Source: Natronobeatus ordinarius (GTDB lineage Archaea > Halobacteriota > Halobacteria > Halobacteriales > Natrialbaceae). Taken from it: a stretch of 64,000 bases of DNA. Below the pieces are notes generated by a model that was not told the DNA's origin, did no database searches, and worked only from the letters and a program-made list of their open reading frames with translations. The stretch lies in NCBI RefSeq assembly GCF_024362485.1, contig NZ_CP101456.1, positions 2,480,001-2,544,000 of the forward strand. Reading direction: 5' to 3'. Both the position numbers and the translations under genes were made by a program. Shown here in pieces: positions 37,964 through 40,824 of the stretch (position 1 is the first letter of the stretch; each line of letters starts with the position of its first letter).

Positions 37964-37980
37964 TATAGTACTCGTTACAA
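37964..37980 (+). repeat. Terminal-repeat-like motif at the left edge of the IS region
   Basis: TATAGTACTCGTTACAA begins right after the eIF2B-like gene's upstream region. Inverted relatives occur at 40178-40195 and at 43724-43738 (CTATAGTACCCGTTG when reversed). It most likely marks the outer end of the ISH3-like element. Confidence 0.55.
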
Positions 37981-38241
37981 CCGCTCGAAACCCGCTTGTG
38001 AGGGCACCCCTCTATCATTTGCGTGGACTTGACGCGGGCGCGGTCGACGACCAGTTCGACCGCGTCCGCGATGCAATCCTCGACGAGGCAGCTCGCAACC
38101 GCGTGTTTACTCGGCCAGTCGATGTCGCAATCGGCGTTCACGACTGGCTCTATTACGGGGACGAAGAGACTCCTCACGTCTGTACAACGGATCCAGCGGA
38201 GAGAACCGACCGCGCGTACAATTTCATACCGCCTGTATTGT

Positions 38242-38272
38242 CGATCCAAGCGTCCGATTCACGCTTGGATCG
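38242..38272. repeat. Perfect 12-bp inverted repeat inside the ISH3-like remnant
   Basis: CGATCCAAGCGT (38242-38253) and ACGCTTGGATCG (38261-38272) flank a 7-nt loop. It lies within the degraded coding part, close to the frameshift. It may be an accident of coding sequence or a structured site. Confidence 0.6.
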
Positions 38273-38313
38273 GTAGCCCCGGAGGGGAGCGATACCGACG
38301 AGTTGGCGGAGGT

Positions 38314-39426
38314 GAGTGATTAGCGCAACAGATGAATACGTAGCCAGCGTATTCTTCGTGATAGCGGGAGCACGTCGGTTTGAGGTCGTTGAGCATCTGT
38401 CGAACGCGGAATTAAACCAGGCAATTGAGGAGGCCCAGAAGGCGGACGAGACCCGTCTCGTCCGGCGACTTTGTTTCGTTAAGAATCTCTACGCCGGAAA
38501 GACTCAATAGCAGACGGGTGTGGCTGTTGGCGTTTCTCAACCAACGAGTAGTCGCTGGACACGCGTATGGAATGAAAAGGCTGTCGAGGGCCTACGCCCA
38601 CGCTTCGGCGGCGGCCGGCCGCCGAAGCATACCCCCACGCAGTGGGCTGAAATCTGTACCACGCTTGAGGACGGCCAGCCGTGGACACCACGCGAGATTC
38701 ACGCACTCATCGAAGATCACTACGACGTTACTTACCACCCGACCCATCTCGCCCGGAAGCTCCGGGACTCAGGAATGCACTACGCGAAGCCACGGCCGAT
38801 GGATCCTCGAAGTCCTGCCGACGCTGAGGAGATTCTCGCCGAGCGCCTGATCGAGGCGCTCGGCGAGAACAATCGAGACACCTCGGAGGATGATCCAGTT
38901 GTCTTCGGGTTCTTTCGATGGGTCGTGACCACAACCGTTCGAGAACTCCCAGCGAATGTGGTCGTACGATCGCACCGTCCAGATAAAGAAACCGTTAGTA
39001 GCAGTGCCGTGGCGGTCGATCGGCTTCTACGCGTTGACTGGGAACGGCGTGATCACGTACAAAGAGCGGCTGGTCAAGGAGACGATCGTCGAGGCACTCG
39101 AAGAGATCCGCGAGCAGAATACGCGGGGCAGGATTCTGCTCGTGGCCGACAATTTCGGCTCTCATCACGCCAAACTCACCCAGGAACGGGACGATGAACT
39201 CGGTATCGAGTTCGTCTTCATTCCACCGTACTCGCCAACGTTGAACGCGATCGAACCGCTGTGGAAAGATCTCAAACGCGATATCTCACCAACTATCTTC
39301 GGGGGCAAAGACCACTTCCGTGAGTTTCTCACCGAGACGTTTCTCCGGTTGAGTCAACGACTCAGCTTCGCTGTTGACTGGATTGAGATCTTCCTTCCCG
39401 ATATTCAGGTGTTACAGTGATCACTC
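38314..39426 (+). mobile_element. IS630-family insertion sequence, decayed, nested in an ISH3-like element
   Basis: The ends are imperfect inverted repeats of about 27 bp: GAGTGAT at 38314-38320 and ATCACTC at 39420-39426, with further matches inside (AACA, TGAATA). The right flank begins TA (39427-39428), the usual IS630 target; the left flank ends in T with the A apparently lost. Length is about 1.1 kb, normal for IS630. The transposase reading frame inside is broken at three places. Confidence 0.75.
38316..39420 (+). pseudogene. IS630-family transposase with two stop codons and a frameshift
   Basis: From a GTG at 38316 the frame encodes a helix-turn-helix half (FEVVEHLSNAELNQAIEEA). A TAG at 38508-38510 interrupts it. 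The frame continues VGVSQPTSSRWTRVWNEKAV, GGGRPPKHTPTQWAEI and YHPTHLARKLRDSGMHY. An extra base near 38914 shifts the frame, and a TGA at 38926-38928 replaces a Trp in the expected DGSWPQPFENSQ. The last part, intact, has LLVADNFGSHHAK and FIPPYSPTLNAIEPLW, the DDE catalytic motifs. It cannot make a full transposase. Confidence 0.88.
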
Positions 39427-40071
39427 TACTCTGCCAACTCATCTCAGACGTCCGCAAGTACGTCGAAATCAACCGACTCTATCTCGATCGTGGCTTCTAC
39501 CATGTTCACCTCGCCCTGACACTCGAGGAACTCGACGTTGAGTTCCTGATGCGTGCACCGCAAACGCGAAAGGTGCAGCAGTTCATTGACGAGCACGATA
39601 ACGACACGTTCATCGCAGAGTACGAGATGGCTCGGTCAAACCCGCCGACGGGCCGGACGACAGTCCGGCTCGTCGTCGTGCCGCATTGAACACGAGGAGA
39701 CGACTATTTCTGTCTGATCACCAACCGCGATCTTAACGTCAGTGCCGACGTCGAGATCGCTTGTCCACTCACCGGAGCATATCGCCGTCGCTGGGGTATT
39801 GAGACGTCCTACCGGAAGATCACGGAGTTTTTACCGAGAACGTCTTCACCGACGTTCACGGTGCGGTTGTTCTACTTTCTGTTCGCCGTCGCACTGTACA
39901 ATCTGCGGGTATTGACGAATCTGCTCGTTACCTCATCTCGGACTGTCGGGACAGACCCAGTCGTCCCGACCGCCTTGTTTCGAGCGTTTCTCGGCCAAAT
40001 ACCATACGGATAGCGGTTATTTCGGCGACAAACTCGGGCTGATTCGCCCGAGTCAGTACGCCTTCTCAGTA

Positions 40072-40195
40072 CTATAGTACTCATTGAAACGATTTACACC
40101 CGGTCACAGCCGAGCGGTCAGCCTCGATCCTCTCGACGAGGCTGACCGCCAACGGTCGTGACCGGGTGTGCAATGACTTTCAACGGTTACTATAG
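40072..40195. mobile_element. Palindromic MITE-like element
   Basis: A 124-bp near-palindrome running CTATAGTACTCATTGAAAC to GTTACTATAG. Matching arms include ACACCCGGTCAC against its complement, and a perfect GCGGTCAGCCTCG (40114-40126) with CGAGGCTGACCGC (40137-40149). It has no coding capacity. The ends resemble the terminal motif at 37964, so it may be mobilised by the same transposase family. Confidence 0.68.
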
Positions 40196-40824
40196 CAAGA
40201 CCGGGAGAACACCGGCTAATGGGATGCTTCAACAGCTGTTGTACTCTCTGGCCAGCACTGAGTACGGTTTCACAAAGCCGGAGCCGATACGAGACTTCAA
40301 TCATCACGGATTTCCTGATCGAATCAGCAACTGCTGTTCAGTCGTGGGTAGCTGACTCGGTGTCAGCCCATGTACTGCGGCGAACTTGACGGCAAGATCT
40401 CAGGCACGAGCGGCGAGTTCGGGTTCTGCGTCACGAGACTCGCGCTCAAAGCGGCGAAGACCATCACAATCAAGGGGCCGTCTTGTAGATGTCGTCGTAC
40501 ATCAGCAACACTGGACGCGCGACCATATCGAAAGCCGAGTGTACGAACAATGTGATGGGTGGAGAACAGCGGAGTCGATAGAGGTGGGCTTTGGCGTCTG
40601 TGGTGGTAGGCGGGGCTGTTGTGCGGTCTACTTCTCTTGGGGTGCAGGTCTTCGGGCAGTTTCCGAACCGCTGATACTGATAGATGTGAACTGTTGGGTG
40701 GACAAAACTGTCCGCTTCGTTCTGGACCAACTATCTTCGATTTCAGAGTAACAACTGTATAGAATTGACAACCATCCAGGTAGACCGAGCATTTTATATT
40801 GATGCGTGTTGAAGTCATGACTGC
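40196..40824. other. Degenerate AT-richer stretch without an intact gene
   Basis: No intact gene was found. On the minus strand, around 40340-40480, short blocks such as DGLRRFERESRDAEPELAAR and DLAVKFAAVHG look protein-like but are interrupted by stops. This suggests a decayed gene that I cannot identify. A TATA-like ATTTTATATTG (about 40789-40799) at the right end probably serves the small membrane protein gene. Confidence 0.45.

Follow-up and report, generated by a model that had tools for sequence, protein, structure and literature searches.

The question raised by this locus is how an IS630-type insertion sequence came to lie inside the gene of another insertion sequence with a complete TA dinucleotide on only one of its sides. 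Transposases of the IS630/Tc1/mariner group are TA-specific integrators, and a reading made from the sequence alone had proposed insertion at TA, duplication of the dinucleotide and later loss of the left A. Coordinates below refer to a 64,000-nt stretch of Natronobeatus ordinarius NZ_CP101456.1 (the window), and L-numbers denote comparison loci.

Organization of the nested elements

The inner element and its target comprise the following features.

38300..38313, + strand: left side of the target hairpin, comprising arm GAGTTGGCGGAG and the loop bases GT
38314..39426, + strand: decayed IS630-type insertion sequence, 1113 bp, identified by IS630 profile matches and full-length relatives
38314..38338, + strand: left terminal inverted repeat of the IS630-type element, 19 of 25 positions matching the right end
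38508..38510, + strand: stop codon (TAG) in the IS630 transposase gene, first frame
38602..38628, no strand: palindrome within the IS630 gene
38833..38869, no strand: 16-bp perfect palindrome within the IS630 gene
38910..38928, + strand: conserved +1 frame change site (TTC TTT CGA TGR), from comparison with relatives
39402..39426, − strand: right terminal inverted repeat of the IS630-type element
39427..39440, + strand: right side of the target hairpin, comprising the loop bases TA and arm CTCTGCCAACTC; RNAfold places the junction 2:2 at the apex

The boundaries of the insert are exactly 38314 and 39426, and its ends GAGTGATTAGCGCAACAGATGAATA and GAGTGATCACTGTAACACCTGAATA, whose matching positions were counted by eye, are the imperfect inverted repeats proposed earlier, starting GAGTGAT/ATCACTC. 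Pieces of its gene score 85.8 and 99.9 bits against the IS630 transposase model of NCBIfam and also match Pfam DDE_3, and an intact relative (L036) scores 233.8 bits against NF033545, for which the cut-off is 100. The catalytic residues D6, D83 and E118 are invariant in six relatives, with 34 intervening residues counted by hand, giving the D-D-34-E spacing. Terminal inverted repeats of the form GAGTGRT...AYCACTC recur, with small variants, in 33 located copies. The nesting had been held to depend on intact relatives having the proposed ends; they share them, and the nesting therefore stands. Of 125 genomes of the host family, 53 contain whole or partial matches to the IS630 part at E ≤ 0.001; in addition to the window copy, these include two full-length relatives (86 and 89% identity) and one that is nearly full-length (84%). 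A scan of viral contigs returned no relative of the element, and no solved structure matched it by sequence.

The surrounding element comprises the following features.

37964..37976, no strand: 13 bp that match the MITE end exactly, directly next to the point where the outer element is truncated on the left
37978..40336, + strand: outer ISH3-like element, which lacks its left end but retains its right end ...CAACTGCTG; relatives align rightwards from 37978
40073..40194, no strand: MITE of about 122 bp (TATAG...CTATA) within the outer element, at its right end; relatives lack a MITE here
40337..40348, + strand: TTCAGTCGTGGG, right half of the palindrome hit by the outer element; the same motif lies beside intact ISH3-like relatives

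The outer element is thus broken by two inserts, the IS630-type element and the MITE. Both flanks match the ISH3 model as expected from the sequence-only reading, albeit weakly and as fragments (E 0.0016 and 6.7e-6). The 376-residue protein of an intact relative (L087) scores best by far against ISH3, at 150.8 bits; this is under the curated NCBIfam cut-off of 225, and the element is therefore termed ISH3-like. The right outer flank is matched in 45 of the 125 genomes. The two outer flanks adjoin each other in the closest relatives, and empty homologues with 78–89% identity cross the site uninterrupted. Together with the profile matches, these uninterrupted relatives confirm that the IS630-type element is nested in the ISH3-like element, and the order first proposed (ISH3-like element first, IS630-type element second, then decay) is supported. 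The outer gene is without its N-terminus; its left piece has a frameshift near 38228, before DELAEV, and its right piece contains a stop at 39687–39689.

Target site in the window

Empty relatives of the outer gene carry, at the position of the insert, a hairpin GACGAGTTGGCGGAG-N3-CTCCGCCAACTCGTC or close variants of it, with a 3-base loop such as GCG. The loop has three bases in the intact gene and four in the window, a gain of exactly one base. Removal of the insert together with one base restores the continuous frame DELAEV/LCQLISDV, and the target is thus reconstructible in frame, as had been claimed. The simplest account is a loop GTA whose central T was duplicated to give GT-insert-TA, with no base missing. 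The sequence-only reading was correct that TA is present on the right and T only on the left; the supposed loss of the left A gives way to a hairpin tip with a one-base duplication.

Insertion sites of close relatives

Copies of close relatives were found via their terminal sequences, and both ends were located in 33. Two (L035 and L110) were left out since neither has a credible right end; after correction of the right end of L119, 31 close-group sites from across haloarchaea remained. As a control, left and right flanks from different sites were combined, excluding pairs with homologous targets (912 pairs). Empty homologues were obtained for 10 of the 33 sites queried.

Palindrome arms with a score of at least 7 flank the element at 21 of the 31 sites, compared with 9 of the 912 mismatched flank pairs; an earlier version of this test gave 20/33. 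When the joined flanks were folded, the junction split the tip 2:2 beneath at least eight enclosing pairs at 17/31 sites, a result obtained for 35/912 mismatched pairs and for only 2/186 junctions shifted by 5, 7 or 9 bases. The junction lies within some hairpin loop (RNAfold) at 26/31 sites versus 387/930 mismatched pairs, which is a weak test alone. The MITE family of the same genome, subjected to the same palindrome test, gave no copy above a score of 4 (0/13; one of the 14 copies has no recognisable end). No strong palindrome is present at the remaining 10/31 sites (L020, L021, L022, L024, L025, L026, L027, L028, L034 and L156), some of which fold weakly.

The palindrome precedes the insertion. 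It is present in the empty relatives at ten sites (the window, L102, L104, L105, L106, L107, L108, L121, L126 and L146), and the idea that palindromes are made by the insertion itself was rejected on this ground. The same comparison shows that the duplication depends on the loop: all six even loops (L102, L104, L105, L106, L107 and L126) were entered without duplication, and all four 3-base loops (the window, L108, L121 and L146) gained one base. Reading frames are concordant at four further sites, indicating one base at L122, L133 and L019 and none at L023; the exception is L119, where a 3-base loop shows no duplication as judged from the reading frame.

The insertion is central regardless of the sequence of the arms, which share nothing between sites. 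At 17 of the 21 palindromic sites the target is a transposase gene (15 by profile match and two by homology), distributed as follows.

IS110: L102
IS5: L104, L108
IS4: L107, L128
IS701: L122, L119 (by homology)
IS6: L146, L121 (by homology)
IS1/IS1595 zinc-domain gene: L133
IS1634: L153
IS66: L019, L023
IS630: L105
ISH3-like: L126, L106, the window

At two of the other palindromic sites (L140 and L158) the flank proteins have no match, and two (L036 and L124) were left out of the scan. The same IS6-type palindrome has been struck twice, in opposite orientations and in different genera (L121 and L146), and appears by eye to have been entered also by a small element (L206).

Mode of target selection

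Taken together, it is probable that this haloarchaeal IS630-type (DD34E) group inserts at the tips of hairpin-forming palindromes. Insertion would then be guided by structure, with the transposase recognising a cruciform or hairpin and not a sequence. The palindrome might extrude as a cruciform, or a hairpin might form during replication, and the two transposon 3' ends would attack both hairpins near their tips, so that the stagger would be set by the length of the loop. In the window, an ISH3-like element would first have entered a palindrome of the IS605/TnpB-end type, the IS630-type element would then have entered the hairpin tip in the ISH3-like gene, converting the loop GTA to GT-insert-TA, and the MITE would have inserted further to the right before everything decayed. 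More tentatively, though it is a plausible extension, the group may represent a DDE lineage that chooses its targets by shape, with loop-set duplication, that also moves the small mobile repeats found in palindromes of other mobile elements and that lives as a specialised parasite of other insertion sequences.

Among the alternatives, a symmetric transposase dimer that reads the two-fold symmetry of a double-stranded target, with no extruded hairpin, fares best but is unlikely. A symmetric complex would equally give insertion at the centre of the dyad, but a dimer of fixed stagger would not be expected to give a duplication that varies with the size of the loop. Furthermore, the arms have no sequence in common between sites, and such a dimer would therefore have to sense symmetry itself, 8–17 bp out from the centre. 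Slightly less likely again is that the element enters a hairpin in single-stranded DNA, such as one on the template of the lagging strand in replication. The absence of duplication at even loops agrees with insertion into one strand, but the one-base duplication at 3-base loops requires a staggered double-strand event, and DDE transposases normally use double-stranded targets.

Ordinary IS630 insertion at TA, with duplication of TA and subsequent loss of the left A, now appears very improbable. It is in keeping with the TA to the right of the window copy and with TA on both sides of a bacterial IS630 copy (L198, described below), and IS630 and ISY100 are reported to insert at and duplicate TA (PMC2170065). 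Nevertheless, no such insertion is seen either in the flanks of the 33 located copies (0/33 have TA on both sides) or in the empty sites, whose lengths agree with a duplication of zero or one base and not two, and the window is accounted for without any loss. Least credible is a passive association in which copies survive in harmless places within palindrome-rich insertion-sequence genes, since, although most targets are such genes and the window IS630 gene itself contains three of the listed window palindromes, this explains neither the exact centring (2/186 shifted junctions) nor the MITE result (0/13).

Distant group, small elements and other taxa

A more distant group of about 50% identity, with ends TAGT...ACTA, includes elements annotated as ISHti6 and ISNpe13. 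Of 32 candidates, seven without recognisable ends and one duplicate were set aside, leaving 24 sites. At 13/24 of these the element lies between palindrome arms (score of at least 8), compared with 4/552 mismatched pairs; an asymmetric search revealed further palindromes, outside the 13/24, at L160, L182, L183 and L190. The TA of this group belongs to the element, the empty sites of L164, L165 and L202 being without it. Two sites follow the loop relationship (L165, with a 3-base loop and one base; L202, with a 4-base loop and none) and L164 is an exception, having a 3-base loop and no duplication relative to a 99.5% identical empty site. Seven others (L160, L173, L177, L180, L182, L183 and L190) show differences of another size from their empty relatives, and the duplication rule is therefore clean only in the close group.

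Five small elements of 107–109 bp with the ends of the close group were found in 5 of 293 genomes (L203–L207), and the reversed control pattern was found in none of the 293. Three of the five lie at palindrome centres. Their shared ends suggest that they might be non-autonomous partners of the IS630 group and possibly kin of the SMR-A repeats of Haloquadratum walsbyi. According to PMC3119063, SMR-A repeats are about 110 bp in length, have terminal inverted repeats, make no target duplication and sit in palindromes of other mobile elements, and their mobiliser is called enigmatic there. The likeness is one of description, and a link between the five small elements and SMR-A would be hypothetical.

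Four IS630 copies from bacteria or methanogens (L195–L198) served as comparators; L199, which is cut at the start of its record, was excluded. L196 and L197 are flanked by TA and have no palindrome, and L195 has no credible ends. L198, an Aliarcobacter IS630 element, has TA on both sides with palindrome arms TTATTACTCC and GGAGTAATAA outside, so a preference for palindromes may extend beyond haloarchaea.

Relation to known systems

The elements share with the IS630 family (ISY100, IS630, ISHti6 and ISNpe13) the transposase profile, the D-D-34-E spacing, terminal inverted repeats and a length of about 1.1 kb, but differ in lying at hairpin tips with zero or one base duplicated and no TA duplication. 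ISHti6 and ISNpe13 are annotated plainly as IS630, yet they too are found in palindromes. In vitro, ISY100 is reported to insert almost exclusively at TA (PMC2170065), and a title cited in that article names CTAG, itself a tiny palindrome, as the preferred IS630 target. The literature searched yielded no description of IS630 elements that target hairpin tips, although the two classical papers on IS630 target choice (Tenzen 1990 and 1991) and a review of archaeal insertion sequences may hold hints.

IS1272 is a member of the IS1182 family and thus differs in transposase family, and also in domain of life, from the group described here. It replaces the hairpin, whereas the present group keeps both arms around the insert with the element at the tip. 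The two are alike in being DDE elements with inverted-repeat targets of unrelated sequence and without target duplication, and a cruciform scheme has been proposed for the inverted-repeat-replacing transposition of IS1272 (PMC5678879). That article gives the IS630 target as NTAN and describes inverted-repeat targets as not identified before. Insertion sequences that target REP/BIME sequences, namely IS1397 and ISKpn1 (IS3), IS621 (IS110) and ISRm22 (IS4), also enter palindromes (PMC1525189), but these are particular repeated palindromes, whereas the arms in the present group differ at each site. Five families are listed in PMC1525189, and IS630 does not appear among them.

If insertion at hairpin tips is correct, a DD34E transposase can take DNA structure as its target. 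This would account for the frequent nesting of haloarchaeal insertion sequences, would suggest what might mobilise the small mobile repeats, for which no mover had been named, and would provide a natural probe of cruciform extrusion in living cells.

Frame change in the IS630 gene

The sequence-only reading took the inner element to be decayed. The stops TAG 38508–38510 and TGA 38926–38928 are real and constitute the true damage to the window gene; the frame break at GGGTTCTTTCGATGR was rejected as decay because intact relatives have the same break. In 16 of the 22 copies listed, the first open reading frame stops at ...GFF(R) and the DDE part resumes one frame on, the DNA at this point being TTY TTT CGA TGA with few variants. 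In the window copy (38910..38928) the 0-frame TGA is now TGG, and the +1 frame carries the TGA at 38926–38928. The change separates the DNA-binding half of the gene from the DDE half. Two copies of a 1100-bp subgroup (L034 and L036) instead have a single open reading frame of 350 residues. The conserved motif looks like a candidate programmed +1 frameshift in archaea, with slippage on TTT-C; frameshifting in the IS630 family is noted in PMC5009743.

Palindromes associated with other elements

Haloarchaeal insertion-sequence genes contain long palindromes within the coding sequence, the arms of which change in step across relatives (L164 and L176; by eye), and certain of these palindromes are insertion targets for related elements. 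The target of L164 is a palindrome in what appears by eye to be the same stretch, in relatives, as 38833–38869 of the window.

The ISH3-like element targets a palindrome of one kind. Eleven distinct intact copies (1344–1388 bp, ends CAGTAGTTGCTGA) were found among L083–L097, and eight of the 11 have a 4-base target duplication, corresponding to the four central bases of the palindrome; these copies thus combine short inverted ends with a short duplication. In all 11, by eye, the left and right flanks form the halves of a CCCACGGC...GCCGTGGG-type palindrome (ungapped score 4 to 12), which we take to be the end region of IS605/TnpB elements; at L087 a TnpB-like gene, named by eye, adjoins it. 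The target duplication of ISH3 elements is usually 5 bases. The outer element resembles this family in its best transposase score but differs both in duplication length and in falling under the cut-off.

The MITE (TATAGTACTC...GTTACTATA), of which the genome has at least 40 copies, itself forms a long hairpin and is not inserted in palindromes. The fragment of its end at 37964–37976 suggests that the left end of the outer element was lost through a deletion that began within a second MITE copy.
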